Shown here one piece after another: positions 2,648 through 11,991 of a stretch of 64,000 bases of DNA (its first letter is position 1; each line of letters begins with the position of its first letter). The DNA comes from Citrobacter sp. On2M. GTDB lineage: Bacteria > Pseudomonadota > Gammaproteobacteria > Enterobacterales > Enterobacteriaceae. Both the position numbers and the translations under genes were made by a program. The notes beneath the pieces are model-generated. The model worked only from the letters and a program-made list of their open reading frames with translations, was not told where the DNA came from and searched no databases. The stretch spans positions 1 through 64,000 of the forward strand of contig NZ_WPCV01000001.1 of NCBI RefSeq assembly GCF_018035235.1, read 5' to 3'.

Positions 2648-3721
2648 ATGTCGCTATCCCGACTCCTGATTAAAGATTTCCGCAATATTGAAAATGCGGA
2701 TCTCGCTTTATCTCCCGGCTTTAACTTCCTGGTAGGCGCTAACGGCAGCGGCAAAACCAGCGTGCTGGAAGCTATCTATACGCTCGGCCACGGCCGGGCG
2801 TTTCGTAGTTTGCAAATTGGCCGCGTGATTCGCCACGAACAAGAATCGTTTGTTTTACACGGGCGTTTGCAGGGTGATGAGCGTGAGACGTCGATTGGTC
2901 TAACGAAAGACAAACTGGGCGACAGCAAAGTGCGCATTGACGGCACTGACGGGCACAAGGTCGCCGAGCTGGCGCACCTGATGCCGATGCAACTGATAAC
3001 GCCTGAAGGGTTTACTTTACTCAATGGCGGCCCCAAATACAGAAGAGCATTCCTTGACTGGGGATGCTTTCACAATGAAGCCGGCTTTTTCACTGCCTGG
3101 AGCAATCTGAAGCGGCTGCTCAAGCAGCGCAATGCGGCACTGCGCCAGGTAAGTCGTTATGAGCAACTGCGCCCGTGGGATAAAGAACTGATCCCGTTGG
3201 CGGAACAAATCAGCGCCTGGCGCGCGGAGTACAGCGCCGGTATCGCGCAAGATATGGCGGATACCTGCCAGCAGTTTCTTCCCGAGTTCTCTCTCTCCTT
3301 CTCATTCCAGCGCGGCTGGGAGAAAGAGACAGATTACGCCGAAGTGCTGGAACGCAGTTTTGAACGCGATCGCATGTTGACCTACACCGCGCACGGTCCG
3401 CATAAGGCGGATTTTCGCATTCGTGCCGACGGCGCGCCGGTGGAAGACACGTTGTCGCGTGGGCAGCTCAAGCTGCTGATGTGCGCCTTACGTCTGGCGC
3501 AAGGGGAGTTCCTGACCCGCGAAAGCGGACGGCGCTGCCTGTACCTGATAGATGATTTTGCCTCTGAACTGGATGATGCGCGTCGTGGGCTGCTGGCCAG
3601 CCGCTTAAAAGCTACGCAATCTCAAGTCTTTGTCAGCGCAATCAGCGCTGAACACGTTATAGACATGTCCGATGAAAATTCGAAGATGTTTACCGTGGAA
3701 AAGGGTAAAATAACGGATTAA
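2648..3721 (+). CDS. recF: Recombination mediator RecF
   Basis: RecF is an SMC-like ATPase that, with RecO and RecR, loads RecA onto SSB-coated gapped DNA and helps restart stalled forks. The 357-residue product is full length. Walker A GANGSGKT is at residues 30-37. The ABC-type signature is SRGQLKLL in the C-terminal third, followed by Walker [13 protein letters not shown]. The start [14 protein letters not shown] matches the family. The gene is cut off from direct translational coupling to dnaN by the palindromic element upstream. It is followed after 28 bp by gyrB. Confidence 0.98.
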
Positions 3722-3731
3722 CCCAAGATAA

Positions 3732-6164
<2,433 letters not shown>

Positions 6165-6193
6165 GTCGTTTTGAACATTACGATCCTGACGAA

Positions 6194-6222
6194 AACGCCT
6201 GAATTTGTTCAGGCGTTTTTTT
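6194..6222 (+). terminator. Rho-independent terminator of gyrB
   Basis: A perfect 10-bp stem, AACGCCTGAA (6194-6203) with TTCAGGCGTT (6208-6217), closes a TTTG loop and runs into a T tract. It lies 30 bp past the gyrB stop and separates it from the convergent operon ending at 6242. Confidence 0.93.
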
Positions 6223-6241
6223 ATGGTCTGTCTGAAGGTGA

Positions 6242-8185
6242 TTAGATAATCTGCCGGCCAAAAGGAATGCAGTGAGCGACTATATTATTCACCGTAACGA
6301 TAAGGTTCTCATTTTCAATATTTATTTGGATATCATCATCTCCTGAAAAGTCGGTGACAGTGATATGAATGACCCGCTTTTCTGTTGAACGCATCGTGAG
6401 ATACGTCAGCTCTGATATTGAGGGATTGTTTGGCCCTTTGCCGTGGAAGAGCACGCTATTACCTGCCGATAAGCAATAAACCGTGAACTTATCCGGCGAC
6501 TGCCAGCGCAATTTTACGGGGGTATCCAGATTAACGGCATCAACAGCCATAATGTGCGGGAAGAGCGTGACGGTGTGCCTGGTGCAGAGCGGTTCAGCAT
6601 TAATCAGGTAACTGGTATTAATCTCCTGATTGTGCGGGTTATCAACTGTAATAATATCAATTAATAAGTCGCTACTTGTGGTGATGTTTCGACGAAAAAC
6701 CACGTCTTTGTAGGCCTCTGCATCCCATTCGACGCGGGTTTTACTGTCAGGGAGCATTGGCATACTTTGCCACTCGACTTCGGTAACCAGTTGTACCGTG
6801 CCATTTTCTTCACGGTATAGCACCACGCTGGGATTTGCCGGTGCCTGGTTTTTCCCATTAATACAGAGTGTGTTATGTGAAAAAGAGTTCTTAAAGTAAC
6901 CGTAATGCAGCGGTGCGCCGTAGCCTGTGGTACCAAGGTCCGGAAAAATTGCCCGGCCATTATTAAACACGGTTAACCCCAGTCGATCATAGTGATCGTG
7001 CTCGCCGCCATAAGGTGTGTGTTTGACACAAATAGCACGCCCAAGTTTATTCCGGATAATCGTCAGACCGCTTTCTGCTGTATGCAGCGTCTCCTGTGGT
7101 GGTAAAAGAGCCTGTGAAGGGAGCGTTTTCCCGTAAAATACTGCATCAATACTGTTTCGAGGGTGCTGGCTGTAAATCTGTTTTAATAGCTGTCCATATT
7201 CTGGTGTGTCGTAATACCACCAGGCAAACTCATAAATATCGCTATGCGTCAGTTTTTCCTGGCCGTTCACACAGTCGTTAATTTTCGGCAGCGTCATATC
7301 TGGCATTAACTGCGTCAGTGGTACGCTCAACATTTTTGGATACCAGGCGGTTTCCAGCAAACTGTAGTCCGAACCACGGGCGACTTTTTCATAGGCGAAA
7401 AATCCCTGCAGCGCGTAAAAATGGTAATGCAGAGAACCTTCAAACCACAAACCGTCAGGCATTAAGGCATGTTCTAACTGGTATCGAAGCCCGTACTGGC
7501 TGTTAACCGCAAATTCGAGATACGTTTTATCATCTAGCACAGCCCCAATAATGCCGATTGCAGCGCTGATTTTGACTTCATGGTTGTGGATCTGATTACA
7601 GCGATGTTGCATAAGGAAATCTGCTCCCGCACGTAAGAGACGTTCAGCGATATACAGGTCTTCCTCTGCGGTGAGTTTATTGCGGATAATGTCGAAGCCT
7701 CTGGCAAAATCGGAATGGCAGTTGGCCTCGCATAATGTCTGTGCATTTGCTTTTCCGGGGCCATTGTAGGGAATTCCGCCGTGCTCCTGATAATCCGGAT
7801 AATATCTGGCGTAAAGCATCAGAATATCCCGCACTTTGCTGAGATAACGGGCCTCATCGGTCAGCAACCACAGTACCGCCAGTTCATAACACGCTTTTGC
7901 ATTTAAGCCATTAAGCCAGCGCCACCATGCGCCATCATAAGGCTCACCGGAAAATGTTGTACCATCCACGGGGCAGCGATGCACTTCTGGCGAATGGCGA
8001 TCCCACATTAAACGTACGCTGTGCTCCGGGCAAAAAAAGTAGTGGTTCCAGGTCGCGCATCCCGTTTCAGGAACCAGAACCGGATTATTGATAACATCGC
8101 TGTTGCTTGCTCTCAGCGCGTTTATCATCTCTGGCCTGGCGAGTTCACGGGCCTGCAGTACTTGCTTTTGTGTAAACTGCTTCAT
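6242..8185 (-). CDS. Heparinase II/III-family polysaccharide/oligouronide lyase, cytoplasmic
   Basis: The protein (647 residues) has the two-part layout of heparinase II/III-type lyases: an N-terminal alpha/alpha toroid and a C-terminal beta-sandwich. Features seen are a Cys pair (C52, C71, the latter in CPVDG), IHNHE around 199-203 with a candidate catalytic Asn-His, DGLWFEGSLHYHFYAL at 244-259 with the candidate Tyr/His, GGEHDHYDRLGL at 393-404 and SFSHNTL at 434-440. These resemble oligoalginate and heparinase-like lyases. The N-terminus (MKQFTQKQVLQARELAR) has no signal peptide, so it should act in the cytoplasm, cleaving imported unsaturated oligouronides to monomers. It is the last gene of a four-gene operon, 10 bp after the secreted lyase. 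The substrate is not predictable from sequence. Confidence 0.8.
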   Translation of the reverse strand: MKQFTQKQVLQARELARPEMINALRASNSDVINNPVLVPETGCATWNHYFFCPEHSVRLMWDRHSPEVHRCPVDGTTFSGEPYDGAWWRWLNGLNAKACYELAVLWLLTDEARYLSKVRDILMLYARYYPDYQEHGGIPYNGPGKANAQTLCEANCHSDFARGFDIIRNKLTAEEDLYIAERLLRAGADFLMQHRCNQIHNHEVKISAAIGIIGAVLDDKTYLEFAVNSQYGLRYQLEHALMPDGLWFEGSLHYHFYALQGFFAYEKVARGSDYSLLETAWYPKMLSVPLTQLMPDMTLPKINDCVNGQEKLTHSDIYEFAWWYYDTPEYGQLLKQIYSQHPRNSIDAVFYGKTLPSQALLPPQETLHTAESGLTIIRNKLGRAICVKHTPYGGEHDHYDRLGLTVFNNGRAIFPDLGTTGYGAPLHYGYFKNSFSHNTLCINGKNQAPANPSVVLYREENGTVQLVTEVEWQSMPMLPDSKTRVEWDAEAYKDVVFRRNITTSSDLLIDIITVDNPHNQEINTSYLINAEPLCTRHTVTLFPHIMAVDAVNLDTPVKLRWQSPDKFTVYCLSAGNSVLFHGKGPNNPSISELTYLTMRSTEKRVIHITVTDFSGDDDIQINIENENLIVTVNNIVAHCIPFGRQII

Positions 8186-8195
8186 ATCGTCCTCG

Positions 8196-9419
8196 TTATT
8201 TCACCAGCACCGATCCTGGGATCAGGATATTGATATCCTTAGGGTTTTCCTTTGTCATAATGGCTGCATTTTTAATGAAGCTCATATCCTGATACGCTCT
8301 TGCAGCCGCGAGTAATGGTCCTGTTGCTTCAGAAGGCGTATAGCGGATATCTTCATGCCCCCAGGCTGTCTGCGGCTTGCCGGTTTGTTCGCTTATTAGC
8401 AAAAAGGCTTTTTTCATCGTGCGGTTATCCAATTCGAAACCCCAGACATCATTTTGCGCTTTCTCGCCATAGCGTCCCATGTGTGCATAAGCGGATAGTG
8501 CAAAATTAGTGTAATGGAACGAGCGTGTGCGCTCGGTTTCAGATGTGATTTCCCCGGCAGCGTTTACCTGAGAAATCAGGTGGCGCAATTTGAAAATTTC
8601 CACCTGCCGTGATGCTTGCTGCTGTTGATCGGTAAACAGAGAAAATGCTGTAACCTGCGCGTCATACCATGCGCCGTGATTGTTATACCAGTTCGACTCT
8701 TCAAAGCCGTTGTGACTCGTTAACAACCATTGTGTATAGTCTGCATACCATTTTTTATACCCTTTCAGCGCCTGCGAGGGGATATGACCCGAGTTTTCCA
8801 GCAAAACAATGCTGTCAGCCACATCGATCAAAACGCGGGTATCGATAATCCCAATTCCACGTCCGTCGACTTTTCCGGGGATCGCCTGTGCATAGTTTAA
8901 GTTAGGGTTCATTCGGGTTTTACTGTCGAGAAACCAGGCCTGTAACAATTGCTGCGCTTTTTTCGCATATTTATCCTCGCCACTGTAAAACCACGCCAGC
9001 GCCAGCGCCCGAACATCATCGGAGAATTGCACCATGCGCTTACTGTCGGTACCGTTCGTTTTAGAATCCGGGTTTATTTGTCCATCTTTACGGATATAGG
9101 GCATGCCATTTTTACTATCAGGATTTGGCCACCAGTAGGGACCAAAGCTGTAGTAGTCATGTTTATTTCCAGAAACCGGCGTTAAGGTTTTGTCCATGAC
9201 CGAATACACGGAATGAGTGAGCGCCATGTCAGCCTGTTGCAACAGTGCTTGCCAGGCTGGTGTGTATTGGACATCGTGTTGACTAATGCTTTGCTTGATG
9301 CTCAACATTTGTTCACAATCATAAGTCAGGCAAGGGTCATGTTGAGCGGCCAGGATAGTATTTTGTGAACAGAAAACCCCGCTGACAATTAATGCCAGAA
9401 AATGTATTTTACATTTCAT
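8196..9419 (-). CDS. Secreted alginate-lyase-superfamily protein
   Basis: A 407-residue exported protein. The signal peptide is about residues 1-25, with a hydrophobic core FLALIVSGVF and likely cleavage after ILAA. The mature part has the alpha/alpha-toroid alginate lyase (PL5-like) pattern: YYSFGPYWWPNP at 89-100, a central NNHGAWYD at 246-253 supplying candidate Asn-His, and RTRSFHY at 297-303 supplying candidate Arg and Tyr. That arrangement fits the catalytic set known in AlgL. It would be a periplasmic endolyase acting on a mannuronate-, glucuronate- or related uronate polymer. It lies 14 bp after the porin gene and 10 bp before the cytoplasmic lyase, so all are probably one transcript. 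True alginate specificity is unproven. Confidence 0.8.
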   Translation of the reverse strand: MKCKIHFLALIVSGVFCSQNTILAAQHDPCLTYDCEQMLSIKQSISQHDVQYTPAWQALLQQADMALTHSVYSVMDKTLTPVSGNKHDYYSFGPYWWPNPDSKNGMPYIRKDGQINPDSKTNGTDSKRMVQFSDDVRALALAWFYSGEDKYAKKAQQLLQAWFLDSKTRMNPNLNYAQAIPGKVDGRGIGIIDTRVLIDVADSIVLLENSGHIPSQALKGYKKWYADYTQWLLTSHNGFEESNWYNNHGAWYDAQVTAFSLFTDQQQQASRQVEIFKLRHLISQVNAAGEITSETERTRSFHYTNFALSAYAHMGRYGEKAQNDVWGFELDNRTMKKAFLLISEQTGKPQTAWGHEDIRYTPSEATGPLLAAARAYQDMSFIKNAAIMTKENPKDINILIPGSVLVK

Positions 9420-9433
9420 CTTTTTTAGCCTGT

Positions 9434-10132
9434 TTATTCGAAGTTGATGGTTAATCCGATGCGGAAGCGGTTTTCTGTTAATCCTGACTCACTATTATAT
9501 TTTCCTTGTTGCTCCATATAATCCCACTCAACATAAGGTTGAAATGTTTTGTTGAGTTTATATTTAATGACCAGATCATTTTCATAGGCACTTTTCTTGC
9601 CATTGTTATAATGGAAATCATTCACATAGCGATAGAACACGGGGTTATCCTGAATACTAAAGTATTCATTCTGCCAGCCGAGATATAAATCCAGTCGTTC
9701 AACGCTTCCTTTATCCTGAGTACCCGAAAGATCTTTTGAGTCATACTGATTCCAGTCATAACGAAAACGAACTCCAGAGTAGACCGTATCAGTCATATTC
9801 CAGATTATTTTGACGTAAGGGCGAACTTGTGCGCCATCGGTGCTCCAGTGATAAACTATCCCCGGCTGTATTGCCACCATTGGGCTTAGTTTATATTTAT
9901 AGTTCCCTTCAATTTCATTGTAACTGATCGTGGATTGATCGAGGTTATCGTTACCTTGCTTATTATCGGTTTCCATACTCAGCCAGTAACCGGATTTAAA
10001 ACTTTGGCTCATTTTAAAGCGAGACTCGTAACTATGGCTGGCCTCTTTATAGCCGCCACGCATATCAAATGTCATGGCGTGGCCGACGATAGGGCAGCAG
10101 CAAGCCGCCAGCAATAAAGCTGTTTTTTTCAT
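9434..10132 (-). CDS. KdgM-family oligouronide-specific outer-membrane porin
   Basis: A 232-residue outer-membrane beta-barrel with signal peptide MKKTALLLAACCCPIVGHA. The mature protein opens with FDMRGGYKEASHSYESRFKM, the start typical of KdgM/NanC/OmpL porins. Alternating aromatic strands follow, with a strand-like C-terminus RFRIGLTINFE. KdgM porins are monomeric 12-stranded channels with a basic lumen that passes acidic oligosaccharides. It sits 23 bp after the MFS transporter and 14 bp before the secreted lyase. The context therefore suggests it admits acidic oligo- or polysaccharide fragments to the periplasm. Confidence 0.87.
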   Translation of the reverse strand: MKKTALLLAACCCPIVGHAMTFDMRGGYKEASHSYESRFKMSQSFKSGYWLSMETDNKQGNDNLDQSTISYNEIEGNYKYKLSPMVAIQPGIVYHWSTDGAQVRPYVKIIWNMTDTVYSGVRFRYDWNQYDSKDLSGTQDKGSVERLDLYLGWQNEYFSIQDNPVFYRYVNDFHYNNGKKSAYENDLVIKYKLNKTFQPYVEWDYMEQQGKYNSESGLTENRFRIGLTINFE

Positions 10133-10155
10133 AAAAAGTTTTCCTTGCCGATAAT

Positions 10156-11424
10156 TTATGCCGTGATGGCTTGTGTGGTTTTTTTAGGTGTTTTTATTAG
10201 GGTCCACAGGAAAAGTGCGCCGATTAAATCGAAAACGCCCAATCCTACGAAAAAGGCGTTATAACCGATAACAGTAACCATGGCGCCGAGGAACAAACCA
10301 AATAAGAAATTACCCATACTACCGGTAAATGCGGCAAAGCCTGTTGCAGTCCCTACTTCCTGTTTAGGAAACAGATCGGAAGACATACTGATGACCGTGA
10401 TAGACAGGCACTGGTGGGCGAAGCCCGCAACACAGAATAGGGCAATCGCAATATAAACATCGGTAACAAAGCCAACGGCTGCCATCGATAACATCAAAAT
10501 AGAGGCGAACGTGAAGGTGATCCGTTTTGCATTCAGTACACAGAAACCTCGATTAACCAGTATGCGAGACAGATAACCCGCAAAGATACAGCCGAAATCA
10601 GCCGTCAGAAAGGGGAGCCAGGCGAACATTGCGATATGTGCCATATCCATATGGCGAACGGTGACAAGATACAGCGGCATCCAGTAATGCAGCGTTCCCC
10701 ATGCAGGATCGGCCATAAAGCGGGGTAATGAGATAGCCCATAAATTGCGGTTAGTGATAATAGAACGAAGCGTCGCTTTTTCTTTTACCACTTCGATTTG
10801 GTCGGCAAGGACTGCATCATGTTCCGCTTTGATCAGTGCAGGATGTTGTTCTGGTGAGCGATAGAAAATGTACCAGATTACCGCCCATACAATTCCTATT
10901 GCACCAGTAACGACAAATGACATTTCCCAGTTGTAATTAACGATCGCCCACACGACTAACGGCGGCGCCAGCATCGCACCGACGGAGGTTCCCAGACTAT
11001 AAACGCCACAGGCTAATCCTCTTTCCTTTGCTGGAAACCACTCGGCGGTAACTTTCATACCCGCCGGGTTAAAGGCGGCCTCCGTTAACCCTAAACCACC
11101 GCGCAGCCATGCCATTGGCAACCAGGTGCTACATAGGCCTGTGAGCATATTAAAGATTGACCACAGGGCCGCCAGTAGAGCAAAACTTAATCGCAAACCG
11201 AATTTATCGATAATAAAGCCGCATGCGATGCCGCCAATCGCATAAGTGAAGGGGAAGACAGAGACAATCCAGGAATACTGCTCGCTCGACAGCCCTAATG
11301 TTTTCATCATCTCAGGAGCAGCTACCCCGAGGGTGCTTCTTGCGAGATAGTTGGTAATGGTGCCCAGCATCACAAGGACGATGATATACCATCGCAAATT
11401 CTTAATTTTCATTGTTGGTCTCAT
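10156..11424 (-). CDS. MFS transporter, anion:cation symporter family (hexuronate/oligouronide-like)
   Basis: A 422-residue inner-membrane protein with about 12 transmembrane segments. NYLARSTLGVAAPEMMKTLGLSSEQYSWIVSVFPFTYAIGG near the N-terminus is characteristic of the ACS family (ExuT, GudP, DgoT-like), proton symporters for sugar acids. It is the first gene of the operon, so it should import the product of the periplasmic lyase. Because the next lyase is cytoplasmic, the cargo may be a di- or oligouronide and not a monomer. Two starts are possible: ATG at 11424 or ATG at 11412 (MKIKNLRWY). The second is closer to the family start; neither has a strong ribosome binding site. Confidence 0.85.
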   Translation of the reverse strand: MRPTMKIKNLRWYIIVLVMLGTITNYLARSTLGVAAPEMMKTLGLSSEQYSWIVSVFPFTYAIGGIACGFIIDKFGLRLSFALLAALWSIFNMLTGLCSTWLPMAWLRGGLGLTEAAFNPAGMKVTAEWFPAKERGLACGVYSLGTSVGAMLAPPLVVWAIVNYNWEMSFVVTGAIGIVWAVIWYIFYRSPEQHPALIKAEHDAVLADQIEVVKEKATLRSIITNRNLWAISLPRFMADPAWGTLHYWMPLYLVTVRHMDMAHIAMFAWLPFLTADFGCIFAGYLSRILVNRGFCVLNAKRITFTFASILMLSMAAVGFVTDVYIAIALFCVAGFAHQCLSITVISMSSDLFPKQEVGTATGFAAFTGSMGNFLFGLFLGAMVTVIGYNAFFVGLGVFDLIGALFLWTLIKTPKKTTQAITA

Positions 11425-11463
11425 GTATACAGTTAATGATTTTAAGAAACAGTGAATCTATAA

Positions 11464-11484
11464 AAATGAAACGCTGTTTTGTAT
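11464..11484. promoter_or_regulatory. KdgR-like operator candidate upstream of the uronide operon
   Basis: AATGAAACGCTGTTTTGT lies 40-60 bp upstream of the MFS transporter start. Its core, AAAC-GCT-GTTT, is an 11-bp palindrome and GAAA...TTT spacing resembles sites of KdgR, the IclR-family repressor of pectin/oligouronide genes. The right half departs from the consensus, and KdgR itself would be encoded elsewhere. Confidence 0.3.
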
Positions 11485-11547
11485 GCATAAGACTCAAAAA
11501 TGATATTAATTTCCGTGAGGAAATTCACACTTACATGAAGCAAAGAA

Positions 11548-11569
11548 ATACACAAAATATTTTGTGTAT
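11548..11569. promoter_or_regulatory. Perfect 22-bp palindrome, probable operator
   Basis: The half-site ATACACAAAAT is followed directly by its exact reverse complement, with no spacer and no mismatch. It is centred about 134 bp upstream of the MFS start. No T tract or gene end is nearby, so it is not a terminator. The likeliest role is a binding site for a dimeric regulator, possibly GntR-type because of the TTGTGTAT/ATACACAA half. That regulator is not in the window. Confidence 0.5.
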
Positions 11570-11991
11570 AAAAAAATGAATGTGATATGTTGTTTTTTCC
11601 TTGTTTTTCATCGTGTTATTCATGACTCCTGAAAGGAAAAATAATTATTATGTGAAAGCAATGGAATATGCATAATTATTGTGAATAAAAAACATTAAAT
11701 AATAGATTTTTAATATTGAAGTTTGTGATGGTTTATCTACTGATACCGTTTTATTTAAAATAAAATGTTAACGTGTCTATTGTCTGGAAGTTGGCGGAGT
11801 TTGTGATTTAATATCTATTGTCGATTTAATTTTAATAATCATACACAATGTTAATGATTAACTTTGTCGGTTAACGCGTGTGCGTAAACGGTAATGAGGA
11901 TTGCTTTGTCGTTATTCAGCCCCTTTTCGTAGCTGTTTTTTGAGCGGAATCGCGTTAGCATGAGGATGGACTCATTTAATCCGGGGAACTC

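Follow-up and report, generated by a model that had tools for sequence, protein, structure and literature searches.

A predicted KdgR-controlled operon beside gyrB in Citrobacter sp. On2M combines a PL38-type lyase with a PL17-like lyase and probably serves to scavenge a uronic-acid polymer

The first 64,000 nucleotides of contig NZ_WPCV01000001.1 of Citrobacter sp. On2M (RefSeq assembly GCF_018035235.1) were analysed, and this whole stretch is referred to as the window. A run of four genes on the minus strand at positions 6242-11424 was found to encode, in operon order, a major facilitator superfamily (MFS) transporter, a KdgM-family porin, an exported polysaccharide lyase and a cytoplasmic heparinase II/III-like protein. 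The four open reading frames (ORFs; 11424-10156, 10132-9434, 9419-8196 and 8185-6242) encode proteins of 422, 232, 407 and 647 amino acids, and the intergenic gaps were recomputed as 23, 14 and 10 bp; the genes, coordinates, strand and spacings of an initial annotation, which was made from the sequence alone, were all reproduced. The features of the locus are as follows.

10156 to 11424, minus strand: MFS transporter of the galactonate/hexuronate type, probable inner-membrane importer of unsaturated oligouronates (PF07690, TIGR00893, PDB 6e9n)
9434 to 10132, minus strand: KdgM-family outer-membrane porin, nearest solved relative NanC (PF06178, 2wjq, signal peptide by eye)
8196 to 9419, minus strand: exported PL38-type polysaccharide lyase, 407 amino acids, putative endolyase (PF05426, 3nfv, 8bdq, signal peptide by eye)
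6242 to 8185, minus strand: cytoplasmic heparinase II/III-like lyase, 647 amino acids, putative exolytic oligouronate lyase (PF07940, PL17 fold of AlphaFold model)
11464 to 11484, minus strand: predicted KdgR box ATACAAAACAGCGTTTCATTT, 4 mismatches in 20 positions to the Dickeya consensus
11514 to 11529, no strand assigned: CRP-like site, TGTGA-N6-TCACG in the minus-strand reading, 1 mismatch to TGTGANNNNNNTCACA
6192 to 6219, no strand assigned: hairpin with a 12-bp stem (-18.3 kcal/mol), probable bidirectional terminator in the interval where gyrB and the operon converge

Of 17 Citrobacter genomes, 2 have the operon, which lies as an insertion between gyrB and yidA; in all 15 genomes without it gyrB adjoins yidA at a distance of 130-244 bp. 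A megablast search of positions 6165-11991 against the E. coli collection gave zero matches, and in one E. coli record yidB occupies the position after gyrB; the initial view that the site is an accessory slot compared with E. coli is thus borne out. No obvious target-site duplication was seen in the aligned flanks of the Citrobacter genomes. The same gene order and slot were present in Citrobacter youngae (L019/L042), with 95, 84, 87 and 85% identity and open frames, and because of this recurrence the arrangement is not considered a product of chance. The hairpin downstream of the last gene is flanked by A and T runs and has a z-score of -4.97; it was missing from the output of a simple terminator scan. 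It probably terminates both the gyrB and the operon transcripts. On the other side, the spacer between the operon and yidA is 567 bp long and holds no ORF of 90 amino acids.

The exported protein, in which a signal peptide is visible by eye, matched PF05426 (Alginate_lyase; 278.7 bits, 7.2e-83) and, among solved structures, 3nfv (BACOVA_01668; 9.7e-75) and BoPL38 (8bdq; 3.1e-42 over residues 63-332). It had initially been called PL5-like, but this label was rejected, as the protein scored 22.5 bits against a cut-off of 366 with the NCBIfam equivalog NF001469, a polysaccharide lyase model which we take to represent PL5 AlgL, and the PL38 structures fit instead. Residues H248 and Y303 align with H243 and Y298 of BoPL38, which are reported as catalytic (PMC13169297), and are invariant in 101 of 101 PL38 rows (taken from homologous loci and restricted to proteins of >330 amino acids and >30% identity); 3nfv keeps the catalytic Tyr and differs in the residue before it. 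On the strength of its similarity to characterised PL38 members and of the catalytic His/Tyr pair, the protein is classified as PL38-type, and it is predicted to act as an endolyase. Characterised PL38 enzymes are reported to act on glucuronan (CUL-I and TpPL38A, one of which is inactive on alginate), alginate (BoPL38 and Aly38A) or hyaluronan (RiPL38) (PMC9029943, PMC13027841).

No signal peptide was apparent by eye in the heparinase II/III-like protein. It scored 49.7 bits with PF07940 (Hepar_II_III_C; cut-off 24, 4.6e-13), which upholds the initial superfamily assignment, and 19.6 bits, just short of the cut-off of 22, with the N-terminal model PF16889. Sequence searches gave distant kin, namely PL17 4nei (3e-19) and heparinase III 4fnv (5e-6). 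An AlphaFold model built from 41 window and locus sequences (mean pLDDT 87.6, pTM 0.90) was compared with known structures at the level of predicted fold. The top ten chains in Foldseek were PL17 or AlgL17 (best PL17 Alg17c, 2.5e-25), as were the top eight entries in VIA (Z 27.6-31.6 over 574-577 residues), where Alg17c again ranked best across the two-domain fold with a Z of 31.6 over 574 residues at 19% identity. The next tiers were PL38 and A1-III/PL5 enzymes, matched over the toroid alone (Z ~25), and other alginate, heparinase III and glycosaminoglycan lyases (~24). The structure search that had been suggested along with the initial annotation thus placed the modelled protein among lyases, with the PL17 fold best, and not in a non-lyase family.

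Residues N201, H202 and Y254 of the cytoplasmic lyase align with N201, H202 and Y258 of Alg17c, and all three are kept without exception in 90 of 90 rows (proteins of over 560 amino acids). H202 and Y258 of Alg17c were taken as catalytic from structure entry titles, and N201 is presumably its catalytic Asn. The alignment leaves the counterpart of Alg17c Y450, which we assume to be the second catalytic Tyr, ambiguous among Y422 and Y430 (both invariant in 90/90) and Y428 (86/90). Since the NCBIfam oligoalginate lyase equivalog NF042990 gave 86.5 bits, far under its cut-off of 1400, the protein is termed PL17-like and not PL17. Alg17c is an exo-type oligoalginate lyase according to PMC8778563, and because of this relationship we infer an exolytic mode; by analogy the protein would be an exolytic oligouronate lyase, and it could be an exo-glucuronan lyase.

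The transporter matched PF07690 (MFS_1; Pfam, 2.9e-59) and TIGR00893 (302 bits, under the cut-off of 395), and its best PDB match was the D-galactonate transporter 6e9n (4.3e-41). The porin, which has a signal peptide visible by eye, scored 109.7 bits with PF06178 (KdgM; cut-off 22, 2.1e-31), so the KdgM-like label stands at family level, although among solved structures NanC (2wjq; 5.8e-46) is nearer than KdgM (4fqe; 5.8e-6).

When species genomes were scanned with the cytoplasmic lyase, 165 relatives were obtained, and the gene neighbourhoods of the best 80 of the 165 were surveyed, a choice that under-represents distant relatives. By record title most of these 80 were Enterobacterales or vibrios, the others being Psychromonas (2), Aliagarivorans and an Arenicella metagenome-assembled genome (MAG); one record titled Chryseobacterium (L066) carries an enterobacterial MFS-type locus and is probably a mislabelled or contaminated assembly. 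The same four-gene order was observed in Atlantibacter (where the lyase frame is broken in that assembly), two Trabulsiella and Rahnella. Of these loci, 72 had 7 kb or more of upstream sequence; among the 72, PL38 was present in 52 and UxaC in 20 (both in 5, either in 67, neither in 5), and the gene directly before the lyase was PL38 in 46, UxaC in 17, an MFS gene in 1 and no recognised gene in 8. Across 398 genomes of the phylum the lyase was found in 6 (E 1e-40), PL38 in 19 (E 1e-30) and both in 4 (Fisher 5.3e-5, kinship ignored).

In homologous loci the MFS gene is replaced by ATP-binding cassette (ABC) or sodium:solute symporter (SSS) transporters. A quick tree of 86 of 87 cytoplasmic lyases (L043, with a broken frame, was omitted; 11 rows carried no importer label) splits by importer, the ABC, SSS and MFS labels requiring 3 changes compared with a shuffled mean of 32.7; an SSS importer also occurs in a Cedecea locus that falls inside the MFS clade. 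What is exchanged between these loci is thus the importer, while the cytoplasmic lyase stays constant, and it is mainly for this reason that the MFS protein is regarded as a probable oligouronate importer.

Several other arrangements were observed. In most ABC-type loci a second, divergent PL38 gene accompanies the importer; in L020 (6602-7807) and L021 (6652-7791) it stands beside the ABC importer and has no obvious signal peptide, so its product may be cytoplasmic. Three Enterobacter/Klebsiella plasmids (L013, L014 and L018) carry a related pair of MFS and lyase genes next to a glucitol-type phosphotransferase system but have neither PL38 nor porin there, and in L014 and L018 plasmid partition genes are also near. 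In Vibrio pelagius a pectate-lyase/epimerase-type beta-helix protein is encoded between PL38 and an SSS importer (L016:6282-8276), and V. cyclitrophicus has a 143-amino-acid piece only, matching the C-terminal end of that protein (L015:7511-7942).

Comparison of the operon-yidA spacer with that of C. youngae revealed a diverged middle and conservation near yidA and in ~140 bp before the MFS start, a footprint which is weak alone as it compares two congeners. The conserved ~140-bp block holds TGTGA-N6-TCACG, in which only the N6 differs, and ATACAAAACAGYGTTTCATTT. The latter resembles the Dickeya KdgR consensus AAATGAAACAnTGTTTCATTT (PMC5559549), from which it departs at 4 of 20 positions in the window and at 3 in C. 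youngae, and is centred ~50 bp upstream of the MFS start codon. It is the single best position in the 64 kb and was equalled by 12 of 2000 first-order Markov shuffles of the 567-bp spacer. The CRP-like site is the sole such match in the window and both half-sites are kept in C. youngae; as 1.7 matches are expected by chance in 64 kb, it is weak alone and was set aside as stand-alone evidence. A sigma-70 promoter scan showed no excess (11 found, shuffle mean 12.4).

Promoters of 77 of 81 loci (four were too short) were then scored for a KdgR box with at most 4 mismatches, which was present in 9 of the 13 MFS-type promoters, in 9 of the 35 of ABC type and in 15 of the other 29 (mostly SSS/uxaC), compared with means of 0.07, 0.35 and 0.13 and maxima of 1, 4 and 3 in a shuffled-palindrome control (n=60). 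These counts are inflated by kinship among loci; the MFS-type set includes the window and C. youngae, where the box was first spotted (7 of 11 without them), and also L102, in truth an ABC-type locus whose MFS match is distant. The On2M genome encodes a KdgR 64% identical to Vibrio KdgR and has 8 places with at most 3 mismatches to the KdgR pattern (0 for the reversed pattern), one of which (L040) directly precedes a cupin gene, named by eye as a putative kdgF. With KdgR in the genome and a box in the promoter, the operon is predicted to be KdgR-controlled, and perhaps also CRP-controlled. Elsewhere in the genome (L026, C5:185000-203000, at 3589-8855) a further operon combines a KdgM-family gene with genes for DUF2264, a LacY-like permease and glycoside hydrolase family 88 (GH88); a KdgR-like box (3 mismatches) lies near the start of this operon, which appears to be another uronate-sugar system.

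The initial annotation had also proposed that the products join the 2-keto-3-deoxygluconate (KDG) pathway from genes elsewhere, and the KdgR box, the genome content and two Vibrio plasmids all speak for this. Outside the operon the On2M genome encodes two members of the KduI family, UxaC and two UxuA proteins. A V. pelagius plasmid carries, within ~21 kb, the lyase, uxaC, two SSS transporters, PL38, porin, kdgR, kduD, a cupin gene, an RpiB/LacAB-type isomerase, a 2-keto-3-deoxy-6-phosphogluconate aldolase and a sugar kinase, and a V. cyclitrophicus plasmid carries a similar set plus kduI over ~30 kb across the record start. Because uxaC, cupin, kduD, isomerase, kinase, aldolase and kdgR are linked in this way, entry of the products into the KDG pathway is plausible. 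A kdgF-type cupin gene also lies at the operon in two Trabulsiella, Enterobacter asburiae and a Pluralibacter MAG.

Taken with the protein families, export signals, predicted fold and homologous loci, the flow envisaged initially, from porin through periplasmic lyase and MFS permease to cytoplasmic lyase, can be retained in the following form. Polymer pieces would pass the outer membrane via the KdgM/NanC-type porin and be cleaved in the periplasm by the PL38 lyase through beta-elimination, and the unsaturated oligomers would be taken up by the MFS permease. The PL17-like lyase would then release 4,5-unsaturated monouronate and one terminal glucuronate; the unsaturated unit would be converted to KDG by KdgF, KduI and KduD, the glucuronate would be processed through UxaC, and KDG would release the KdgR repressor. 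That the four genes form an uptake-and-lyase system is very likely. On balance, we favour an operon controlled by KdgR, and perhaps CRP, which scavenges a uronic-acid homopolymer, most likely beta-1,4-polyglucuronate.

As to the substrate, the initial annotation left alginate, polyglucuronate, a capsule or a host glycosaminoglycan open; all were kept as candidates, but alginate, pectin and glycosaminoglycans each fit the gene context less well than beta-1,4-glucuronan, which has about an even chance of being the substrate. UxaC accepts saturated glucuronate or galacturonate, and glucuronan is expected on chemical grounds to give a threo-type product, like glycosaminoglycans and pectin. Such products need an isomerase and KduD or DhuD, whereas the alginate product is reduced directly to KDG, according to PMC12838403 and PMC8778563. 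The UxaC and isomerase/KduD links therefore argue against alginate, PL38 argues for beta-1,4-linked glucuronate or mannuronate and against pectin, and lyases without a GH88 gene in the operon favour a homopolymer over glycosaminoglycans; glucuronan is where these arguments overlap. A number of observations weigh against this interpretation. PL38 also includes alginate and hyaluronan lyases; the closest structural matches of the cytoplasmic lyase belong to a family of alginate enzymes; and UxaC serves galacturonate as well as glucuronate. A blastp search of the loci with own-genome proteins for linked uxuA, uxuB-type dehydrogenase and uxaA gave one 37% dehydrogenase match (L090), so glucuronate and galacturonate are not separated, and no uxuA or other glucuronate-only marker was found in the loci by this search. 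A box at 4 mismatches is missing from 4 of the 13 MFS-type promoters, 26 of the 35 of ABC type and 14 of the other 29. Of 22 genomes searched that carry the lyase but have no PL38 close to it (22 of 23 such loci; L085 was omitted), 15 gave no PL38 match at E 1e-30, which rules PL38 out as an obligate partner, and Ogl, a pectin enzyme, is linked to the lyase in 3 of 72 loci; for these reasons the lyase may not be limited to a single oligouronate.

An alginate operon, in which both lyases act on mannuronate/guluronate, would agree with the reported alginate activity of BoPL38 and Aly38A, with the fold and catalytic N, H and Y shared with PL17 oligoalginate lyases, and with the presence among the relatives of the alginate users Vibrio halioticoli, comitans, inusitatus and breoganii. 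It is nonetheless unlikely, given uxaC in 20 of 72 loci, an identity to PL17 of 19%, and KduD with an isomerase on the two Vibrio plasmids, which fits a threo-type glucuronate or galacturonate product (KduD and 4-deoxy-L-erythro-5-hexoseulose uronate reductase, both short-chain reductases, were separated by annotation only). Nor is a pectin-type operon probable, in which the cytoplasmic lyase would act on unsaturated oligogalacturonates alongside Ogl or in its place: the KdgR boxes, KdgM-family porin and uxaC would all suit it, and Ogl and a PL9-like gene lie near a Photobacterium homologue, but the usual partner is PL38 (52/72 loci), for which the literature, as far as available, reports no pectin activity, and the porin is nearer NanC than KdgM.

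The heparinase II/III superfamily, a NanC-like porin and the reported cleavage of hyaluronan by RiPL38 would each suit an operon for hyaluronan, chondroitin, heparosan or a glucuronate-bearing capsule. However, an alternating polymer would yield unsaturated disaccharides that need a glucuronyl hydrolase, which the operon does not encode, and blastp with one GH88 found such a gene close to the lyase in no more than a few further loci, so that this reading too has a low probability. A chance neighbourhood or decaying genes without joint function might be suspected from the presence in only 2 of 17 Citrobacter genomes, but is very improbable in view of the invariant catalytic residues, the C. youngae operon with its open frames and unchanged order, and the gene order kept in Trabulsiella, Rahnella and, despite its broken lyase frame, Atlantibacter.

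Polyuronate operons of this plan are already known for pectin and alginate. The KdgR-controlled oligogalacturonide system of Dickeya and Yersinia likewise has a KdgM-family porin, exported and cytoplasmic lyases, a KdgR box and KDG as endpoint, but uses pectate lyases, Ogl and a Tog-type ABC importer where the Citrobacter operon has PL38, the PL17-like lyase and an MFS importer. The alginate system of Agarivorans sp. B2Z047 shares PL38, a KdgM-type porin (KdgMN) and a cytoplasmic PL17-fold lyase; its genes are scattered (PMC9029943), whereas those of Citrobacter form one operon with a KdgR box and relatives link uxaC and kduD, with 19% identity to PL17 and PL6/PL7 absent from the operon. The NanC sialic acid porin is the closest solved structure to the porin (5.8e-46), but the operon has no sialic acid genes. 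Brevundimonas SH203 combines the PL38 endolyase CUL-I with the exo-type CUL-II for beta-1,4-polyglucuronate (PMC5477187), as proposed here; it belongs to a different lineage, and the CUL-II gene is not named in that paper, so the exo enzymes are not comparable by sequence. Among the open-licence literature matches listed, no name for the CUL-II gene was found, and the only exolytic glucuronan lyases were CUL-II, as a purified protein, and an engineered mutant enzyme (PMC4765187). No report on this operon appeared in titles or abstracts among the same matches, which does not show its absence in print. New, as far as this literature extends, are the PL38 and PL17-like pair under predicted KdgR control, the importer swap and the candidate exo-glucuronan lyase.

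It is tentatively suggested, as a possibility short of an even chance, that the cytoplasmic protein founds a separate PL family of exolytic oligoglucuronate lyases, the missing partner of PL38 endolyases in Enterobacterales and vibrios, served by interchangeable importers, including galactonate/hexuronate-type MFS proteins that would carry unsaturated oligosaccharides and not monomers. To our knowledge, glucuronan is not usually listed as a food of Citrobacter, Klebsiella, Serratia or Enterobacter. If the interpretation is true, it would provide a testable gene for exolytic glucuronan breakdown and enzymes for monomer production from algal glucuronan or oxidised cellulose, and some members of these four genera and their relatives would eat glucuronan using the pectin regulator KdgR.

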